Below are positions 3,014 to 50,653 of a stretch of DNA of 64,000 bases, piece by piece. The first letter of the stretch is position 1. Every line of letters begins with the position of its first letter. The translations under genes were made by a program, and so were the position numbers. The notes beneath the pieces were generated by a model that worked only from the letters and a program-made list of their open reading frames with translations, was not told the origin of the DNA and ran no database searches. This DNA is from Paenibacillus sp. HGH0039 (GTDB taxonomy: Bacteria > Bacillota > Bacilli > Paenibacillales > NBRC-103111). The stretch spans positions 548,794-612,793 of the forward strand of contig NZ_KE150413.1 in assembly GCF_000411255.1 (NCBI RefSeq). Reading direction: 5' to 3'.

Positions 3014-4561
3014 GTGAGAAAAATCTATGTGTTTGATACGACGCTCCGGGACGGAGAGCAGTCACCGGGGGTCAATCTCAACATGCAGGAGAAGGTCGAA
3101 ATTGCGCTTCAGCTTGAGAAGCTGGGCGTTGACCGGATCGAGGCCGGGTTCCCGGCCGCTTCTCCGGGAGATCTGGAAGGCGTCGCTTCCGTAGCCCGTG
3201 CTGTGAGAAACGCAACGATTATCGGTCTTTCCCGCTCGCGGGAACAGGATATCGATGCGGCGCGCGAAGCGCTAAGGCACGCTCAGGATCCTTGCCTGCA
3301 TTTGTTCTTGGCCACTTCGCCGATTCACCGCAAGCATAAGCTGCGGATGGAGAAGCAGCAGGTGCTGGAGACGGCTGAAGCCGCTATCCGCTATGCGAAG
3401 AAATATTTCGATAAAATCGAATTTTCCCCGGAAGATGCCGGACGGACCGAGCTCGACTTCCTCTGCGAAGTAACCGAGATGGCGATCCGCGCAGGCGCTA
3501 CGGTGGTGAATATTCCGGATACGGTCGGATTTCTGAATCCGAGCGAGTTCGGGAACATTTTCAAAACGCTGAAAGAAAACGTGCCGGGCATCGAGAAAAT
3601 CCAGCTCAGCGCCCACTGTCACGATGACCTCGGCATGGCTACGGCCAACGCGCTGGCGGCGGTTCTGAACGGTGCCGATCAAATCGAAGGCACCATCAAC
3701 GGGATCGGCGAGCGTGCCGGCAATACGTCGATCGAGGAAGTCGCCATGGCGCTGGAAACCCGCCAGGAGTTTTTCCAGGCGAAGACATCTCTGGTGCTCT
3801 CCGAAATTTACCGCACTAGCCGTCTCGTCAGCAAATTGACGGGGATGGATGTGCCGGGCAACAAAGCGATCGTCGGCGCCAATGCCTTCGCGCATGAATC
3901 GGGCATCCACCAGGATGGCATGCTGAAGGAGAAGACGACGTACGAGATCATGTCCCCGGAGACGATCGGTCTCAAGGAAAGCAAGCTCGTACTCGGCAAG
4001 CATTCCGGCCGCCACGCGTTCCGCGAGAAGCTCATCGATATGGGGTACGACCTCAGCGACGAGCAGGTGAACGCGGCGTTCGCTAAATTCAAGGATCTGG
4101 CCGACAAGAAGAAGAACGTGCTGGATGACGACATCCGCGCTCTTCTCGAAGAGAAGCTGGTCAGCACGCCGGAAGTATATGTGCTGGATTCCCTGCAGGT
4201 ATCGTACAGCAACCAAGCCGTTCCGAACGCTACGGTGCGTATCCATGCCGAGGACGGCAAAGTGCTGGAAGAATCGGCAGACGGCAACGGTTCCGTAGAT
4301 GCCATCTACAACGCAATCGATAAAACGACCGGCGAGGAAGTGGAGCTGGAGGATTACACGATCAAATCGGTTTCCTACGGCAAAGACGCTCTCGGCGAAG
4401 TTCATGTCATTTTGGGCCAAAAAGGTGTTTCCGTACAGGGTCGCGGAATTTCCACGGATATTCTGGAGGCAAGTGCCAAAGCCTATATTGACGCCTTGAA
4501 CCGTCTGATCGAAAAGCGTAAAACACCGACTGCCAAACGCAGCAATGTCACGTTGATTTAA
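3014..4561 (+). CDS. leuA: 2-isopropylmalate synthase
   Basis: Condenses acetyl-CoA with 2-ketoisovalerate, the first committed leucine step. 515 residues, the usual length for the long form. The N-terminal TIM barrel begins with TTLRDGEQSPGV; the metal-binding HCHDDLGMATANALA motif lies about residue 200, and the C-terminal LeuA regulatory domain (about 390-500, leucine feedback site in the family) is complete. It starts GTG with AGGAGGTGAA immediately upstream, 49 bp after ilvC. A strong terminator follows, so leuB is not cotranscribed with it. Confidence 0.96.
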   Translation: MRKIYVFDTTLRDGEQSPGVNLNMQEKVEIALQLEKLGVDRIEAGFPAASPGDLEGVASVARAVRNATIIGLSRSREQDIDAAREALRHAQDPCLHLFLATSPIHRKHKLRMEKQQVLETAEAAIRYAKKYFDKIEFSPEDAGRTELDFLCEVTEMAIRAGATVVNIPDTVGFLNPSEFGNIFKTLKENVPGIEKIQLSAHCHDDLGMATANALAAVLNGADQIEGTINGIGERAGNTSIEEVAMALETRQEFFQAKTSLVLSEIYRTSRLVSKLTGMDVPGNKAIVGANAFAHESGIHQDGMLKEKTTYEIMSPETIGLKESKLVLGKHSGRHAFREKLIDMGYDLSDEQVNAAFAKFKDLADKKKNVLDDDIRALLEEKLVSTPEVYVLDSLQVSYSNQAVPNATVRIHAEDGKVLEESADGNGSVDAIYNAIDKTTGEEVELEDYTIKSVSYGKDALGEVHVILGQKGVSVQGRGISTDILEASAKAYIDALNRLIEKRKTPTAKRSNVTLI

Positions 4562-6134: not shown

Positions 6135-7214
6135 ATGTCAGACGTGAAAAAAATCGCCGTCATCGCGGGGGATGGAATCGGCCCGGAAGTCGTTGCGGAA
6201 GCGGAGAAAGTTCTCAAGAAAACCGAGGAGCTTTTCGGTCATCGCTTTGAGACGGAGCACGGCTTGTTCGGCGGCATCGCCATCGACGAGAAAGGCACGC
6301 CGCTGCCGCAGGAAACGCTGGAACTGTGCCAGCGCGCCGACGCGGTGCTGCTCGGAGCCGTAGGCGGTCCGAAGTGGGACAACAATCCGAAGGAGCTTCG
6401 TCCGGAAACGGGCCTCCTCGGTATCCGCAAAGCGCTCGGCTTGTTCTCGAACATCCGCCCGGCTGTCGTGTTCGACTGCCTGAAGGACGCGTCCACTCTC
6501 AAGCCGGAAGTGCTTGACGGTACGGATCTTATCGTGGTCCGCGAGCTGACAGGAGGCATTTACTTCGGCGAGAAATTCCGCCGCGAGACAGAGAACGGAC
6601 AAGAAGCGGTCGATACCTGCGCTTACAACGTAAGCGAAGTGGAACGCATCGCACGCCAGGCGTTCGAAATCGCCCGCACGCGCAGCAAGAAGCTGGCTTC
6701 GGTCGACAAGGCGAACGTGCTGGAGACTTCCCGATTGTGGAGAGAGACGGTCATCCGCATTTCCGCGGATTACCCGGATGTCGAACTTGAGCACGTGCTC
6801 GTCGACAACTGCGCGATGCAGCTTCTGCGCCGTCCTTCCAGCTTCGACGTTATCGTCACCGAGAACATGTTCGGAGACATCCTGAGCGACGAAGCGGCGA
6901 TGCTGACCGGATCGATCGGCATGCTCTCTTCCGCCTCGCTGGGCGAAGGCAGCTTCGGCCTGTACGAGCCGGTACACGGCTCCGCACCGGACATCGCCGG
7001 TCAAGGGATCTCCAACCCGATCGCGACGATCCTCTCGGTAGCGCTGATGTTCCGCCTGACGTTCGGCTACCACGAAGCGGCGAACGCGATCGAGCGTGCC
7101 GTGAAAGAAGTGCTTGATGCGGGCCACCGCACGGGCGATATCGCGGTCGATAAGTCGAAAGCGATCGGCACTAAAGAAATGGGCGACCTGATTGTCGCGG
7201 CCATCCGTAAATAA
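6135..7214 (+). CDS. leuB: 3-isopropylmalate dehydrogenase
   Basis: NAD-dependent oxidative decarboxylation of 3-isopropylmalate in leucine synthesis. 359 residues, normal. N-terminal [19 protein letters not shown], the substrate loop [16 protein letters not shown], the catalytic Tyr in [13 protein letters not shown] and the Asp/Lys region [19 protein letters not shown] with the following [12 protein letters not shown] are all intact. AAAGGAG lies upstream of the ATG. Unlike B. subtilis ilv-leu, leuB stands alone here and is not followed by leuC/leuD; those genes are not in this window. Confidence 0.97.
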
Positions 7215-7231
7215 AAGAATGCCTGATACCG

Positions 7232-7270
7232 ACACGCAGAAGAGAATTTGCTTTCTGCGTGTTTTCTTTT
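7232..7270 (+). terminator. Terminator after leuB
   Basis: ACACGCAGAAG...CTTTCTGCGTGT stem followed by TTTCTTTT. Confidence 0.85.
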
Positions 7271-7402
7271 GTAAAGAAAAGATGTAGGCGTCGGGATGCA
7301 AAATACGCACTATTATAATAGGTAGAGATTCGTTTGAAAACTTCGCGTTAGCGAACAAAAATCAAGAAGCCGAAGGCCGTAATGGCAGCAAATGTTCGCA
7401 CA

Positions 7403-7430
7403 TTGGTCATATTTTTATAATAATTATTAT
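7403..7430 (+). promoter_or_regulatory. Peroxiredoxin promoter with overlapping PerR-type box
   Basis: TTATAATAATTATTA at 7415-7429 matches the B. subtilis PerR box TTATAATnATTATAA at 13 of 14 fixed positions. It overlaps a candidate promoter TTGGTC (7403-7408), 16 bp, TATTAT (7425-7430). A second TATAAT occurs at 7442-7447. The box lies about 90 bp before a peroxiredoxin start, the context expected for peroxide-responsive control. Confidence 0.7.
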
Positions 7431-7519
7431 TTAATAGACTCTATAATCTTGACTTTCTTTTGGGTGGATGATACCATTTTATTATTCGACAAGGAAAAGA
7501 TCAAAGGAGGAATTTTGAC

Positions 7520-43212: not shown

Positions 43213-43388
43213 GCATCTCGTTCCGGCCCCTGGAGTTATGCTTTGACCATTCCGGAGCGGACGAGGAGCTTCCTCTTAGCCCTCTTGCGGGTATTGAAGA
43301 AGGGGGCGTGAGGCTGCGGAGGATAGAGAAGAACAAGCCGCCGTCCGGTTAGTTTGACCGGAAAGAGGCCGCCGCATGAAAGGGCAGG

Positions 43389-43458
43389 CCGAAAAGACCC
43401 GACCGAAAAGAGCTGACCTAAAAGAGCCGACCGAAAAGACCCGACCGAAAAGACCCGG
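43389..43458 (+). repeat. 14-bp tandem repeat, five units
   Basis: Five consecutive 14-mers of the form CCGAAAAGACCCGA (variants CCGAAAAGAGCTGA, CCTAAAAGAGCCGA). The period is not a multiple of three, so it is non-coding; the last unit runs into the transporter terminator. Apart from these repeats the 490 bp gap from 42993 holds no gene I can support. Confidence 0.75.
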
Positions 43459-43474
43459 CAGCAAAACCGGGTCT
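43446..43474 (-). terminator. Terminator of the peptidase-ABC exporter gene
   Basis: Minus strand AGACCCGGTTTTGCTGCCGG-type stem (AGACCCGG...CCGGGTCT) followed by TTTTCGG, about 15 bp past the stop. Confidence 0.7.
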
Positions 43475-43487
43475 CCCGCGCTCTTTC

Positions 43488-45674
43488 TTACAAAGCGGCC
43501 TGCGCTTCCGCAAACTGGCTGTTCCACAAAGCGCTGTAAGCGCCGCCCCGCCGCATAAGCTCGTCATGGCTGCCGGCCTCGACGATACGGCCTTTGTCCA
43601 TGACGCAGATCCTGTCGCAGTGCCGCACTCCGCTCAGTCGGTGAGAGATCATCACTGTCGTGATGCCGAGGCCGGCGACCAGCGAGGTAACGGCCTTCTC
43701 CGTCACGGCGTCCAGGCTGCTTGTCGCTTCGTCCATCAGAAGCAGGTGGGGCTTCTTCATGAGCGCCCTCGCTACCGAAAGCCGCTGGCGCTGGCCTCCC
43801 GACAAGTTGGAGCCGTTCTCCTCCAGCACCGTCTCGTAATGCTGGGGAAGCGAGGCGATAAAATCGTGAATTTGCGCCTGCTTGCAGACTTCCGCAACTT
43901 CTTCCAGGGATGGCTTGGGATCGAGTCCCAGACACAAGTTGTCGTAAACCGTGCCGTGGTAGAAAAACGTTTCCTGCGGCACATACGCGATCCGGCTGCG
44001 AAGGACACCGGCGGGAATATCGCGCAGATCGTGTCCGTTGATCTCGATGCTTCCCTGCTCGGCTTCGAAAAATTTCATCATCAGCTTCAGGAGGCTCGTT
44101 TTGCCGGAGCCGCTCGGTCCGACCAGAGCCGTCGAGGAACCCTCGCGTATCGTGAGATTTATATCGTCTAAGGTAAGGGGCCTGCTTCCGTAGCGGTAAG
44201 AGAGATGGCGGATCAGCAGATCTCCCCGCAGGTCCAAGGCGTCCCTGGAGACGGCAGCTTCATCCGGCGAAAGCTCTTTTTCCGCCGCCAGATCCATATA
44301 TTCACCCAGCCTGGAAGCGGCGACATAAGCCGACTGGAGTACGGGCTGAAGGTCGATCAGCCGCTGAAGCGGGCTTAGAAAATAGGCCAGGAGCACGTTA
44401 AAGGTAATGAGCTGGCCGGCCGTGATCTCCCCTTCCAGCACCTGACGGGCGCCGATCCACAGCAGGACGACTCCGCTGATAAGCTGGAGGGCCGTTTTCA
44501 ACGCCGACTGGACGTTGTTCATCAGACCGTACTTAAACGCCGTAGCCAGAAAAGCTTCGTATTTCGCCCTTGCGGTCTCTTTTACCTCCCTTTGTGCGGT
44601 GGAGGCTTTGACGGTCTCGATGCCTTTAATGGATTCGATGACATAGGAAGTCAGCTCGGCATTCTCGTTCATCATCTTCCTGTTATACCGGTCAAAAAAT
44701 CCGCGGAAGCCTCCCATAATCAACACATACACCGGGACGAGCAGCAGCGTAAGGCCGAAGAGGAGCGGATTCTGGTTATAAAGGACGGCAGCCGCTATCA
44801 GCAGCGTCAGGGAATCGACCGCGATATGAAGAGAGGCTTCGGAGAGCGCGTCTCGGACGTTGGAGGCGTCGGTCAGTCTGGAGGTGATTTCCCCTGTTTT
44901 GCGCGAACTGAAAAAGCTCATCGGCAGCGAAATGACGTGATTGTAATATTGAAGCACAAGACCGCGGTCGATCCGCTGGGCGAGATACAGGAACAGATGA
45001 TTTCTCGCGAAGTCAAGCAGGGTCTGGACCGCATAGAGGACAATAATGCCGACCGAAACGAGCGTGAGCGTGCCTTGCAGCTTTTCGGCCATAATCGTAT
45101 CGAGCAGAATTTGAAAATAAAAAGCGCCGGCCATGCCGATCGCCGTTACGAGAAGCGAGGCGGCAAGAATCGGCAGGAGAAGCTTCCGGTTGCTGCGGAG
45201 CAGGGGGAAGAAACGCTTCGCAGCGCCCGTCACCCGGCTGCCGGGTTCGAAGCTTTCGCCGGGCGTCAGCAGAATAAGCACGCCGGTCCACAGGTTCAGG
45301 AATTCTTCTGTTTTGTATGTCCGCATTCCTTCGGCCGGATCGGCTGCAAGGACCTTATCCCCGGTAATCTTGTATATCACGATATAATGCTGAACTTCTT
45401 TGTCGATCACATGCGCGATAGCCGGAAGTTCGAACCCGGCGAACAGAGCCGGGGCGTCGCCTTTTAACGCTTCGGCGGTGAAGCCGAGCTTCTCGGCCCC
45501 CTGCACGATGCCGTAGGCGTTCGTCCCCGTATGATCCGTGCCGCAAGCTTCGCGGATCAGGGAGAGCGGCATTTTCAGGCCGTAATAACGGGCCACGGCA
45601 GCCAGGCAGGCGGGGGCGCAATCTTTCCGGTCGTGCTGCCGGATACAAACCGGTTTTCGGCTCAAGCTCAACAT
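43488..45674 (-). CDS. C39-peptidase ABC exporter (bacteriocin processing, SunT/PCAT type)
   Basis: 728 residues in three parts. Residues 1-135: C39 cysteine peptidase with Gln13, Cys19 (RQHDRKDCAPACLA), His96 (VQHYIVIYK) and Asp112 (AADP), which cuts double-glycine leaders. About 155-430: six-helix ABC membrane domain. About 480-728: ATPase with Walker A GPSGSGKTSLLKLM, signature LSGGQRQRLSVARAL, Walker B LLMDEATSSLD. It removes the leader while exporting the peptide. The start is ATG 45674, seven bases from AGGAAGGC. Divergent from the precursor gene 178 bp away and next to a SunS-like transferase. All catalytic residues are present, so it should be functional. Confidence 0.93.
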   Translation of the reverse strand: MLSLSRKPVCIRQHDRKDCAPACLAAVARYYGLKMPLSLIREACGTDHTGTNAYGIVQGAEKLGFTAEALKGDAPALFAGFELPAIAHVIDKEVQHYIVIYKITGDKVLAADPAEGMRTYKTEEFLNLWTGVLILLTPGESFEPGSRVTGAAKRFFPLLRSNRKLLLPILAASLLVTAIGMAGAFYFQILLDTIMAEKLQGTLTLVSVGIIVLYAVQTLLDFARNHLFLYLAQRIDRGLVLQYYNHVISLPMSFFSSRKTGEITSRLTDASNVRDALSEASLHIAVDSLTLLIAAAVLYNQNPLLFGLTLLLVPVYVLIMGGFRGFFDRYNRKMMNENAELTSYVIESIKGIETVKASTAQREVKETARAKYEAFLATAFKYGLMNNVQSALKTALQLISGVVLLWIGARQVLEGEITAGQLITFNVLLAYFLSPLQRLIDLQPVLQSAYVAASRLGEYMDLAAEKELSPDEAAVSRDALDLRGDLLIRHLSYRYGSRPLTLDDINLTIREGSSTALVGPSGSGKTSLLKLMMKFFEAEQGSIEINGHDLRDIPAGVLRSRIAYVPQETFFYHGTVYDNLCLGLDPKPSLEEVAEVCKQAQIHDFIASLPQHYETVLEENGSNLSGGQRQRLSVARALMKKPHLLLMDEATSSLDAVTEKAVTSLVAGLGITTVMISHRLSGVRHCDRICVMDKGRIVEAGSHDELMRRGGAYSALWNSQFAEAQAAL

Positions 45675-45680
45675 CATCAC

Positions 45681-45858
45681 GCCTTCCTACAGCAGGTTAT
45701 TACCTTTAAATAACCCGTTAGAGAGAGATTAATAACAAGTTTTAATAGTTAAAATCGCTAAATGAATGGATAATATATCCAAATCACGATTAAATTTTGG
45801 AGCTCCGGGTTAAATAAAGTCGAGGTTATTCAACCTACTTCGGAAAGGAGAACTTACA
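45681..45858. promoter_or_regulatory. Divergent AT-rich promoter region of exporter and precursor
   Basis: TTTAAATAACCCG (45705-45717) and CGGGTTAAATAAA (45806-45818) form an inverted pair, one near each gene, 88 bp apart; AGGTTATTCAACCT (45823-45836) is a small hairpin just before the precursor ribosome site. No -35/-10 pair can be fixed with confidence. Confidence 0.5.
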
Positions 45859-46080
45859 ATGAAAACACTCAAAAGTAACCACTCTTTCACCAAGCTGGAT
45901 GAAACCGAAATGATGAATGTCAACGGCGGCGACTGGAGAGACCATGCGCGCTGGACGGCTGACTTCCTGCGGGGCCTCTTCTCTAATCCGCTCGGCTGCG
46001 GACTCGGCGATGTGACCGGAGGCAACAGCAAACCGGCCAAGGGCTGCTCGCCTTATCCGGCCAAAAACAGCAATTGCTAA
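45859..46080 (+). CDS. Double-glycine bacteriocin precursor (candidate glycocin)
   Basis: 73 residues. Residues 1-24 form a leader with the canonical C39 recognition pattern (FTKLDETEMMNVNGG) ending in Gly-Gly; cleavage would free a 49-residue core starting DWRDHARWTADFLRGLF. The core has three cysteines (core positions 23, 39 and 49, the last one terminal), several Ser/Thr and a Gly/Pro/Lys-rich second half (GDVTGGNSKPAKGC). There are no CX6C pairs as in sublancin or glycocin F. AAAGGAG lies upstream of the ATG and a terminator downstream. The exporter divergent from it and the SunS-like enzyme after it make export, processing and glycosylation likely. No immunity gene recognised. Confidence 0.85.
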   Translation: MKTLKSNHSFTKLDETEMMNVNGGDWRDHARWTADFLRGLFSNPLGCGLGDVTGGNSKPAKGCSPYPAKNSNC

Positions 46081-46095
46081 TCAGGAAACGGGGCG

Positions 46096-46120
46096 GGGCC
46101 GGTTTAACCGGCCCTGTTTT
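46096..46120 (+). terminator. Terminator between precursor and glycosyltransferase
   Basis: GGGCCGGTTTAACCGGCCC compact hairpin followed by TGTTTT. It would give a short, abundant precursor mRNA with reduced read-through into the downstream enzyme gene, a usual arrangement for peptide precursors. Confidence 0.8.
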
Positions 46121-46182
46121 CATTTCGATAGCCAGGGAAATAATAGAAGCGTAAGGGTTCAATAGCGCAGAGGGGTGAGTGG

Positions 46183-47703
46183 ATGGTTAACGCGGATCGG
46201 GATTGGCTGAACAAGTACAGGTATAATCTCCCTTTCTTTGAAAACATACATAAGGAGCTGCTTCGTTCCGCGGAAGAGTCCCGGAACCCGGGGCCGGAGC
46301 AAGCATTCGGAGAGGCACGCGCCCAAGCGGAGCCGGGGACGCCGCTCCCGTCCTCCGAGTCTGTCCACTCCGCGCAACCGTTAAGCGCGGACGGACGAAT
46401 GGAGAACCTGCTCCGCCGGGTCGAAGAGCGGATTACCCTGCTGGAAAAGGTGCGGGAATGCTCGGATGAGCTGGTCTCGCTCATCGGAGAAGAGCCGTCC
46501 GGCATGCGGGAAGAAATAGCGGCGCTGAGCGGCAGCGAATACGGAGAGCTGCTCGAGGATCTGCTCCGGTCCGGCCGGGCGTCGATATCAGTCGTCATTC
46601 CCGTCTTCAATGAAGAACGGTGCATCGCGCGCTGTCTGGACAGTGTGCAGGGGGTGGCCGACGAGATTATCGTCCTCGATACGGGCTCGACGGACGGCAC
46701 GGTCGACGTGATCTGCAGCGGCTATCCCCACGTCCGGATCGAGTTAACGGAGTGGAAGGACGATTTTGCCGAAATCCGCAACCGGCTGAACGGCTTGGCG
46801 ACCGGAGACTGGATCTTCCACGTGGATGCGGACGAAGCTTTGATCGGCGACGGGGCGGAGCTTAGAGCTTTTTTGCGGCTGTTCTATGATTGTCCGGCCG
46901 AGGCGCTTGTCGTCTCGCCCGGAATCGTCAATCACGACGGTCAGGAGTTGACGCTGACCCGCAGAATTTACCGCCGGGAAGACGGGCTTCGCTACTACGG
47001 CGTCATTCATGAGGACCTCCGGAGGGAGATGGACGAAAGAGGCGGGGATCTGCGGCATCTTATGACGAGTTTCACGCTATCCCACGACGGGTACGAGCCG
47101 AAGGTGATCCAGGCGAAGAACAAGCACGAGCGGAATATCCGGCTGGAAGAGCAGATGGTGGCGAGAGAGCCGGATAACATCCGGTGGCATTATTTTCTGG
47201 CGCGAGAGAAGCAGGAAGCGGGATATCCCGACCATGAAGTCGTGGAGGGAATCCGCAAAGGACTCCGGCTCAGAGGAACGCGTACCGAGCCGGACCATTT
47301 TCATCTGCGCAGCCTGCTGCTACTGGCCGGTATACTGGACAGACAGCCTCAATATAACGAGCCGCTGAATGCCCTGGCGGAGGAAATCAACGCACTTTAT
47401 CCCGATTGCACCGACGGGCTGTACTATCTGCTTCTGCATGAGTATACGGATGGAACGGGGAATCTGGTGACCCGGGCCGAATCGGGGCTGAACCAGTTGA
47501 AACAACTGGAGCATCCGTATTCCCTGCTGCATCCCAGAAGCGATCATGTCACGCGGCTGATCGGGGAGATATTTATGGCGGCCGGGCAGTACAAGCGGGC
47601 GTTCCATCTCTACTCCCTGATCTCCGACGAAAGAATCCTCCAAGACCTCCGGGAGAGGCTGGGCGGCCTTCAGGAGGAGATAGCCGCATTTTTGGAAGGA
47701 TGA
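46183..47703 (+). CDS. SunS-like GT2 peptide glycosyltransferase with TPR-like C-terminus
   Basis: 506 residues. Residues 1-135 are a variable N-terminal part with a coiled segment; 136-300 a GT2 GT-A domain (SISVVIPVFNEERCIARCLDSV, EIIVLDTGSTDGTVD) with the metal-binding DxD in FHVDADEA (about residues 213-215); then VIHEDL and LSHDGYEPKVIQAKNKHERNIRLEEQMVAREPDNIRWHYFLAREK, followed by TPR-like helices. The order IVLDxxSTDxTVDII..., VHEE, HNGYxP...KxxRNIxLxEExLRxEPxNxKWxFFxGRE is that of SunS, which S-glycosylates sublancin. Position after a double-glycine precursor supports peptide glycosylation. The alternative is a general surface-glycan GT2. ATG with AGGGGTGAGTGG. Confidence 0.82.
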   Translation: MVNADRDWLNKYRYNLPFFENIHKELLRSAEESRNPGPEQAFGEARAQAEPGTPLPSSESVHSAQPLSADGRMENLLRRVEERITLLEKVRECSDELVSLIGEEPSGMREEIAALSGSEYGELLEDLLRSGRASISVVIPVFNEERCIARCLDSVQGVADEIIVLDTGSTDGTVDVICSGYPHVRIELTEWKDDFAEIRNRLNGLATGDWIFHVDADEALIGDGAELRAFLRLFYDCPAEALVVSPGIVNHDGQELTLTRRIYRREDGLRYYGVIHEDLRREMDERGGDLRHLMTSFTLSHDGYEPKVIQAKNKHERNIRLEEQMVAREPDNIRWHYFLAREKQEAGYPDHEVVEGIRKGLRLRGTRTEPDHFHLRSLLLLAGILDRQPQYNEPLNALAEEINALYPDCTDGLYYLLLHEYTDGTGNLVTRAESGLNQLKQLEHPYSLLHPRSDHVTRLIGEIFMAAGQYKRAFHLYSLISDERILQDLRERLGGLQEEIAAFLEG

Positions 47704-49546: not shown

Positions 49547-49574
49547 AACCCCCGCGGGTTAATCCGCGGGGGTT
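49547..49574 (-). terminator. Terminator overlapping the stop codon of the GT2-TPR gene
   Basis: AACCCCCGCGG...CCGCGGGGGTT perfect stem with T-run on the minus strand; the TAA stop (49559-49561) falls in the loop. Confidence 0.75.
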
Positions 49575-50653
49575 CCTTCTTTTCCGGCCAGCACGCCTTC
49601 GAGATAAATCTTGTTGGCTAGAGCTTGGCGGTCGCCGGGACGGTACTCCAGCACCGTCTCGTTGTGCCGGTGCGCCAGCTCGTGCTCGCCGAGCCGGTCG
49701 TAGCAGACGCACAGCTGCAGATGCGGGAGCCAGGTCGAGCAAGCGACATGAGTCAGCGCCCACGAATCGGTATGCTTGCCCGCCTGCAAAGCGGCCTCGT
49801 ACCAGTAGGCGGCAGTGCGGCAGTCCTTTTTTCGTAAAAAGACGTAACCCAGCCGGCAGCAAAATTCAGCGCGGGGGCTTGCGTAGAGGAATGAGCGGAA
49901 CACGCTGTCCAGCTCCCGCTTCTCGTCCCCGAGCGCATGGAAACAGTCCGCGAGCCTGCCGCATGCGGAGATGTTGTCCTCGATCCAGCCGTTCCCCGTC
50001 CCGAGAAACTCCTGGTAATAATGGATGGCCCGGTTATACATCCGGTGGTCTTTCAATTCATTGGCGAAATAAAACAAGTCCCTCGGCGAGAACGTTTCTC
50101 CCTGGGCCAGCCGGTTTTCGTAAATGCGCAAATTGCGGCCGCTGTCGTGGTGCAGAGCCCGGTGGGTGACGGCGATATCCGTCGTCCGGACACTCCCGCG
50201 GACTTCCAGATATTCGTGCACGGGCCCGTGCCAGAGAAAGCCGCAGCTTCTCTTGACGAGGCGGTTGCGCCGGATGCTGGCGGATACTTGGCCGAATTCG
50301 TCAAAAGCGAGGTTGTAAACCATATTAACCGCGTCAACGGAAGGTTCCAGGGTTTTCTTGAGCGCGGCGAGTTTGATCCGGTCCGGTTCCTCGAATACGT
50401 CGTCCGCGTCCAGCCAGAGGATGTACTCTTTTTCGGCCAGGCTGAACGAATAATTGCGGGCGGCGGCAAAATCGTCGATCCACCGGAAATGATGGACCCG
50501 GTCCGTATACTCCCGCACGATGGGGACCGTCCGGTCCGTGGAGCCCGTATCCACGATGACGATCTCGTCCACGAGATCCGCCACGGACGCAAGACAGCGC
50601 CCGATATGGTCTTCTTCGTTCTTCACGATCATGCAAAGGCTGATGGTAGGCAC
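49559..50653 (-). CDS. GT2 glycosyltransferase with C-terminal TPR helices
   Basis: 364 residues. GT-A domain from the N-terminus (TISLCMIVKNEEDHIGRCLASV, EIVIVDTGSTDRTV) with DxD in YILWLDADDVFEEP, the conserved FLWHGPVHEYLEV, then TPR-like helical repeats (about 215-350). The same general architecture as the SunS-like enzyme 2 kb away, but with a shorter N-terminus. Such TPR-GT2 proteins are common in Paenibacillus-type genomes and glycosylate unknown acceptors. GTG start with GGGAGGG. Its stop codon lies inside a terminator hairpin. Confidence 0.82.
   Translation of the reverse strand: MPTISLCMIVKNEEDHIGRCLASVADLVDEIVIVDTGSTDRTVPIVREYTDRVHHFRWIDDFAAARNYSFSLAEKEYILWLDADDVFEEPDRIKLAALKKTLEPSVDAVNMVYNLAFDEFGQVSASIRRNRLVKRSCGFLWHGPVHEYLEVRGSVRTTDIAVTHRALHHDSGRNLRIYENRLAQGETFSPRDLFYFANELKDHRMYNRAIHYYQEFLGTGNGWIEDNISACGRLADCFHALGDEKRELDSVFRSFLYASPRAEFCCRLGYVFLRKKDCRTAAYWYEAALQAGKHTDSWALTHVACSTWLPHLQLCVCYDRLGEHELAHRHNETVLEYRPGDRQALANKIYLEGVLAGKEGTPAD

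Follow-up and report, generated by a model that had tools for sequence, protein, structure and literature searches.

The stretch analyzed here, called the window, is 64,000 nucleotides of Paenibacillus sp. HGH0039 (contig NZ_KE150413.1, positions 548,794 to 612,793 of the forward strand; genome size 6.36 Mb). It contains a three-gene module encoding a C39-peptidase-containing ATP-binding cassette (ABC) exporter, a small peptide with a double-glycine leader, and a glycosyltransferase family 2 (GT2) enzyme, which together resemble a pared-down locus for a glycocin, or glycosylated bacteriocin. Relatives of the module are present in two genomes close to that of the window, Paenibacillus chitinolyticus NBRC 15660 (locus L016) and Paenibacillus sp. 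UNC499MF (L017), and in a second genus (L053 and L054). Positions in the following feature list are counted from the first letter of the window.

43488..45680, minus strand: exporter gene, a C39-peptidase-containing ABC exporter (PCAT) of 730 amino acids
45681..45858, no strand: divergent intergenic region between exporter and precursor, where inspection by eye shows repeats of the GGTTATT...AACC kind (window, L016, and L017)
45859-46080, plus strand: precursor open reading frame (ORF) of 73 residues with a double-glycine leader
45859..45930, plus strand: precursor leader of 24 amino acids, C-terminal end LDETEMMNVNGG (NVNGG), with sub-threshold matches to bacteriocin leader models
45931..46077, plus strand: precursor core of 49 amino acids with three cysteines, described from an alignment, substitution ratios, and a low-confidence AlphaFold2 model
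45997..45999, plus strand: codon of Cys47 in a G-C-G-L-G loop, a predicted S-glycosylation site based on the invariant block G46-G54 and the rule given in PMC6405829
46091..46119, plus strand: 13-bp stem-loop in the precursor/transferase gap, a possible partial terminator
46183..47703, plus strand: transferase gene, a SunS-like GT2 peptide glycosyltransferase of 506 amino acids (function predicted)
Transferase parts: residues 1 to ~128, a fast-changing N-terminal part; then a GT-A domain; then a C-terminal helical part

The exporter scores 680 bits against TIGR01193 (cut-off 524) and carries the Pfam domains Peptidase_C39, ABC_membrane, and ABC_tran. Its Cys/His/Asp, Walker A/B, and LSGGQ motifs, read by eye, are all present, and the only two PADLOC matches (mad3 and mad8) both fall on this protein. 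It shares 96%, 94%, and 64% identity with its counterparts in L016, L017, and L053, against which the ratio of nonsynonymous to synonymous substitution rates (dN/dS) is 0.13, 0.10, and 0.18; here and in the ratios below, synonymous distances to L053 are near saturation. The exporter, whose gene lies adjacent to that of the precursor, is predicted from its sequence to cleave after the double glycine and to export the core. Beyond the 3ʹ end of its gene, degenerate short direct repeats (ACCCGACCGAAAAGA-like) were seen by eye at 43370-43460.

The precursor combines a double-glycine-type leader, whose best score against bacteriocin leader models is 15.6 bits (threshold 21.5), with a core that is under strong purifying selection (dN/dS of 0.00, 0.05, and 0.14 against L016, L017, and L053). 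The ORF is not a product of chance, because it is conserved in five genomes of two genera and its core dN/dS is low. Identity of the precursor to that of the window is 100% in L016 and 96% in L017, where the transferase shares 91% and 80%. Across four aligned precursors (three distinct sequences, the two g15 rows being identical), the core cysteines Cys47, Cys63, and Cys73 (precursor numbering), the block GCGLGDVTG (G46-G54), and the residues Thr53, Ser57, and Ser64 are invariant. A sequence-only reading of this DNA had proposed the three ORFs, all of which were recovered in place; its description of a C39-peptidase exporter with complete motifs was confirmed, as was that of a 73-residue peptide with a double-glycine leader, the leader-model scores lying below threshold.

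A helix is predicted at precursor residues 26-42 by an AlphaFold2 model of low confidence (mean predicted local distance difference test score, pLDDT, of 53), and its amphipathicity is reached by 1.7% or 3.7% of shuffles for two choices of the stretch. Nothing but this helix was taken from the model, and with caution; the invariant G-C-G-L-G comes after it. Core cysteines number five in SunA, five in ASM1, and four in locus L075 (Enterococcus faecalis HRH46), which we take to be enterocin F4-9-like, the O-glycosylated type; its record says hypothetical protein. With only three, the window's core has no nested disulfide pair, and one cysteine would be left unpaired for a sugar. According to PMC6405829, the sugar-bearing cysteine of sublancin-type glycocins is set in Gly-Cys-Gly-Gly/Ser after a helix; the window's loop departs from this rule at the fourth residue, and its helix comes from the low-confidence model. 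The same paper and PMC12457901 describe at least five core cysteines with two nested disulfides, and the latter gives five for all earlier characterized glycocins and seven and eight for newly described ones. The three-cysteine core falls outside the cysteine range of described glycocins.

The transferase is assigned to GT2 by Pfam, and its best NCBIfam model is TIGR04195 (SunS), with 206 bits over profile positions 46-417. This match ends at position 417 of 421, and those of two other Paenibacillaceae GT2 enzymes end at 332 and 310. Its best relatives of solved structure by sequence are 7msk (ThuS, a name taken from the Foldseek listing; 181 bits) and 7msn (SunS; 148 bits), over ~360-370 residues. 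A four-row AlphaFold2 model of the transferase was given little weight, with a mean pLDDT of 57 and a predicted template modeling (pTM) score of 0.41. Searched with this model, Foldseek put six chains of ThuS or SunS at the top (E 2e-16 to 1.3e-12, the next being 3.7e-5), a ranking that also carries little weight because template modeling (TM) scores are ~0.3. The dN/dS against L016, L017, and L053 is 0.21, 0.30, and 0.26, and residues 1-128 are least constrained (0.37, 0.74, and 0.46).

Two sequence-based trees support membership of the transferase in the glycocin transferase lineage but do not support any one nearest neighbor. In the first, which has 34 rows including 18 other Paenibacillaceae GT2 enzymes, a 12-row set (100/97) unites the four enzymes of the window's clade, seven transferases of glycocin or C39-exporter loci, and the enzyme of SFB-turkey; the 18 form a separate set (100/99). 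No precursor was seen at L078, one of the seven reference loci. Inside the 12-row set, the window's clade groups with SunS, the enterocin F4-9-like enzyme of L075, and SFB-turkey (98/95). The second tree (24 rows) adds a further six transferases and retains six of those 18 Paenibacillaceae enzymes. These six again stand apart (100/100), and the companions of the window's clade are SFB-turkey, the enterocin F4-9-like enzyme, and nine glycocin-type ones. The sequence-only reading had proposed a SunS-like enzyme and had named grouping with surface-glycan GT2 enzymes far from SunS as a sign to the contrary. No such grouping was seen, the enzyme falling with glycocin-locus transferases in both trees; the SunS-like label stands on lineage and best model but not on the TIGR04195 cut-off of 350 bits.

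Two other enzymes were noted in the course of this comparison. A second GT2 gene of the window (49559-50653, minus strand), with a tetratricopeptide repeat (TPR)-like C-terminus and 76 bits to TIGR04195, falls outside the glycocin set in the tree and is likely unrelated to the locus. The SunS-lineage transferase of SFB-turkey (Candidatus Arthromitus; L018, 7872-9278) scores 203 bits against TIGR04195, adjoins a gene for a DUF4214 protein of 984 residues and what look by eye like sugar-nucleotide genes, and is perhaps a protein glycosyltransferase of another kind.

The three genes occur together wherever the precursor is credible. A search for the precursor gave matches in 6 of 104 genomes of the family (E<=0.01) and in 6 of 392 genomes of the order (E<=0.001, at most the best 15 first-look candidates being scored per genome). 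In both sets one of the six, in G034 (E 0.001; L052/L084), was treated as chance: it covers core residues only, has no leader, and overlaps an ORF named permease-like by eye. Credible precursors occur in 5 of the 392 genomes, namely three of the five genomes of the window's genus (strong matches, the search there giving weak ones as well) and two of another genus, and all five keep the same layout, with the exporter divergent and the transferase after the precursor. In G027, exporter and transferase are both frame-disrupted; sequence errors are possible there because the stated completeness of the genome is 90% and its contamination 5%. The Lrp/AsnC and amidase genes that border the module in the window, and that L016 and L017 keep, are unmatched in the 19-kb stretches of L053 and L054, so the three genes stay together while their surroundings change between genera. 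A precursor/exporter pair lacking the transferase, which the sequence-only reading had named as contrary evidence, was not seen, since all five genomes have all three genes (disrupted enzymes in G027 included). In G002 and G003, considered for an empty-site comparison, the amidase matches (54 and 57%) lack clear orthology, and no Lrp gene was found in these short loci.

Transferase relatives are widespread, with matches at E<=1e-30 in 58 of 104 family genomes. Among 53 other family genomes with such a match, 18 contexts of 12-15 kb around other Paenibacillaceae GT2 genes contained no relative of the window exporter at E<=1e-10; both module genomes and all seven reference loci with an annotated exporter (L073-L078 and L080) contained one. 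A precursor search of plasmids gave no match, and the precursor and transferase alignments found no relative among viral contigs. Extended to the whole class, a search by the transferase alignment (at most the best three candidates scored per genome) reached E<=1e-45 in 8 of 398 genomes, the window's own included. Contexts were taken for six of the other seven; an exporter relative lies in two of them, L098 and L101, and only L098 showed a precursor. In L098, from a Bacilli genome with a C39 exporter relative, the precursor (3322-3513) is sublancin-like with a TIGCGG motif and the transferase (6211-7470) is a SunS equivalog (478 bits); this locus looks like a further sublancin-type glycocin.

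The spacing from precursor to transferase start is 102 nucleotides, and a stem-loop lies inside this gap in the window, L016, L017, and L053. Whole-gap folding z-scores are -1.6 for the window (11 of 200 shuffles as stable), -3.4 for L016, -3.6 for L017, and -4.8 for L053, so that the window's gap is weakly structured relative to shuffles whereas those of its three relatives are clearly structured. A scan for consensus promoters and terminators did not exceed chance level and passed over the stem-loop. In the SPBc2 record, a stem_loop is annotated after sunA, the corresponding place. The element is possibly a partial terminator, which would hold precursor transcripts above transferase transcripts.

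The window-side neighbors in the Pfam scan are chromate transporters, an Lrp/AsnC regulator, an amidase, and a GntR regulator, and no oxidoreductase was found among the nearest neighbors scanned (five of the window and four of L053). One DsbB homologue is encoded elsewhere in the window's genome. In L017, the short ORFs of the gap next to the exporter are missing or poorly conserved. Among the scanned neighbors and the gap ORFs, no thiol-disulfide oxidoreductase gene and no immunity candidate was found, in line with the sequence-only reading; the unusual core that it also remarked agrees with the three cysteines.

An exported glycosylated peptide is the best explanation of these data because of the machinery and its conserved linkage. 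The locus is read here, with a probability of about 0.62, as a pared-down glycocin-type route to a small glycosylated, exported peptide that carries its sugar on Cys47 and is likely a narrow-range antibacterial. Computation shows the genes and their family assignments, the conservation of their co-occurrence and layout, the invariance of the cysteines, and selection acting on the core; glycosylation, the sugar, and antibacterial activity are inferred. By analogy, S-glycosylation is probably on Cys47. The SunS-like transferase would recognize the amphipathic helix and glycosylate Cys47 in G-C-G-L-G, following the published SunS/PalS/ThuS rule. Cys63 and Cys73 would form the sole disulfide through the general machinery of the cell, and the C39 exporter, judged by its family, would remove the leader after the double glycine and secrete the 49-residue core, the most likely use of which would be as a narrow-range antibacterial peptide. 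The locus is called glycocin-like, and not of sublancin or glycocin F type, because the peptide misses the known structural description. The earlier proposal of a glycosylated, exported antimicrobial peptide is partly supported: it has the transferase lineage and the linkage in five of five genomes on its side and lacks the usual cysteines, oxidoreductase, immunity gene, and TIGR04195 cut-off score.

Several observations count against the glycocin-type reading. At 206 bits, the transferase misses the TIGR04195 cut-off of 350, which the ASM1 (166) and enterocin F4-9-like (186) transferases also miss. The two other Paenibacillaceae GT2 enzymes scored (153 and 138) match or exceed those of L080 (142) and L077 (125), and because of this overlap, bit scores alone fail to separate the classes. 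In the second tree, whose deep forks are weak (81/83), the SunS branch adjoins the Paenibacillaceae set, and the neighbor of the window's clade inside the glycocin set differs between trees. By path, the closest outside transferase in both trees is that of SFB-turkey, in whose 12.9-kb locus no exporter or precursor was seen, and a clade of glycocin and window transferases without it is rejected (approximately unbiased test, p 0.024). The enzyme adjacent to the precursor is of glycocin lineage, but within a set that also holds the SFB-turkey enzyme. Moreover, the structure models of both precursor and transferase are low in confidence, and the loop motif is GCGL, not GCGG or GCGS. Nor is the core significantly similar to SunA: when the two window-family cores were compared by shuffling with ten comparison cores, none of the 20 comparisons survived correction, the lowest p being 0.015 (window core versus L077), followed by 0.051 (g15 core versus enterocin F4-9-like core) and 0.054 (g15 core versus SunA, with 0.066 for the window core). 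No immunity candidate was found among gap ORFs of at least 25 amino acids (four window gaps), which are unmatched in L053, an unlinked gene being possible. The genome has no Thioredoxin_4 (BdbD-type) match, other oxidoreductase families not having been searched. Finally, an odd number of cysteines is not strict, as orniglycocin has eight, two of them glycosylated, according to PMC12457901.

The invariant Thr53, Ser57, and Ser64 also suit a route in which the same machinery would O-glycosylate the peptide (at Thr53, Ser57, or near the C-terminus), with the cysteines paired or partly free. This would follow enterocin F4-9, and the L075 transferase shares the seven-row set of the window's clade (98/95). 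O-GlcNAc is reported at Ser37 and Thr46 of enterocin F4-9 in PMC8620827. The odd cysteine number and the invariant G-C-G loop after the predicted helix point the other way, and O-glycosylation is considered unlikely. A glycosylated signaling or developmental peptide in place of a killing one is given about the same probability but is a serious contender. A precursor nearly unchanged (100% and 96% in L016 and L017) beside a more variable transferase (91% and 80%), a core dN/dS of 0.00-0.14, and the lack of an immunity candidate, the window's short gap ORFs being unmatched in L053, would fit such a role; no receptor or kinase was found among the scanned neighbors, and the scattered distribution (three of five genomes in the genus with strong matches, 5 of 392 in the order) is to be expected more of an optional weapon than of a core signal.

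Two further readings would make the neighborhood accidental or defunct. An unmodified class II bacteriocin with its exporter, beside a surface-glycan or spore transferase by chance, draws on the weak fit of the leader to class II bacteriocin models and on the 58 of 104 family genomes with GT2 relatives; it is improbable given that the three genes are linked in two genera with different surroundings and that the transferase groups with those of glycocin-type loci in both trees. That the locus is a non-functional relic is the least probable of all: the exporter and transferase of G027 are each in more than one frame, which sequence errors in that genome might explain, and the frames are full-length and under purifying selection in the window, L016, L017, and L053.

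A more far-reaching proposal is offered tentatively, as somewhat doubtful: a separate class of S-glycosylated exported peptides, each with one helix, one glycosylated Gly-Cys-Gly loop, and one disulfide at the C-terminus. Such peptides would be products of a minimal set of three genes that lacks dedicated immunity, and their tight conservation would suggest a fixed molecular target or signaling. If true, the sugar-bearing loop would be uncoupled from the two-helix, nested-disulfide fold. Peptide S-glycosylation is rare, and a natural substrate with three cysteines, a single helix, and a single G-C-G loop would reveal how little a SunS-type enzyme requires and whether such peptides depend on nested disulfides for their production or use. 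A module without oxidoreductase and immunity genes would easily be missed by mining based on complete clusters. No publication on this locus was found in the literature on glycocins and P. chitinolyticus bacteriocins, mostly non-subscription papers being covered. Singh and Rao in 2021 reportedly described glycocin clusters beyond Firmicutes, and the window's locus may already be in their tables. In PMC5100339, nine uncharacterized putative glycocin clusters are mentioned, some in Paenibacillus sp., and PMC9576775 counts ten experimentally identified glycocins in Bacillota as of 2022.

Compared with known systems, the module shares with the sublancin type (SunA/SunS/SunT; pallidocin, thurandacin) a double-glycine-type leader, a C39 exporter, a SunS-family transferase, a predicted helix followed by a Gly-Cys-Gly loop, an odd cysteine number, and a stem-loop after the precursor gene. 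It differs in having three core cysteines instead of five, GCGL instead of GCGG/S, a divergent exporter where that of sublancin is on the same strand, a transferase of 506 amino acids versus 422 for SunS, and no bdbA/bdbB or sunI counterpart seen at the locus. Glycocin F and ASM1 likewise have a double-glycine leader, an exporter, a related transferase, and cysteine as last residue; however, their thioredoxin-family gene pair and LytTR regulator are not beside the window's module, and their cysteines number five, not three. L075 has the leader, exporter, related transferase, and a core ending in cysteine, but four cysteines, two thioredoxin-family genes, and a 100-residue hypothetical gene. 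By analogy with EnfI (98 residues; PMC8620827), the latter may be an immunity gene.

Plasmid loci of E. faecalis (pEfsC74/pUAMSEL2), Edwardsiella, and Photobacterium encode two-cysteine peptides with GG, GS, or GA leaders: L077 (3059-3259) and L104 (4503-4703) on E. faecalis plasmids, L080 (3642-3854) on an Edwardsiella tarda plasmid, and L105 (2200-2400) on a Photobacterium plasmid. Next to them lie transferases of the SunS lineage, C39 exporters that have HlyD-type or accessory partners, and a small protein whose N-terminus looks similar by eye; the peptides are possibly glycosylated and microcin-like and may be covered by Singh and Rao. The same E. faecalis plasmid region holds a second two-cysteine double-glycine-leader peptide beside an S41-family peptidase gene (L104 2350-2562, L077 772-984), and the paired peptides are perhaps a two-peptide system. 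With the window's peptide, the plasmid peptides share an N-terminal stretch followed by one Cys-to-Cys loop. The window and L077 cores have GC..GD...G...P in common over 14 residues, a likeness that is not significant (p 0.015 for the window core, 0.107 for the g15 core), and the L077 exporter is the nearest compared (40%) outside the module's own genomes. Unlike the window's module, the plasmid loci have two cysteines, an HlyD-type or accessory secretion protein, a small extra protein, and transferases on another branch.

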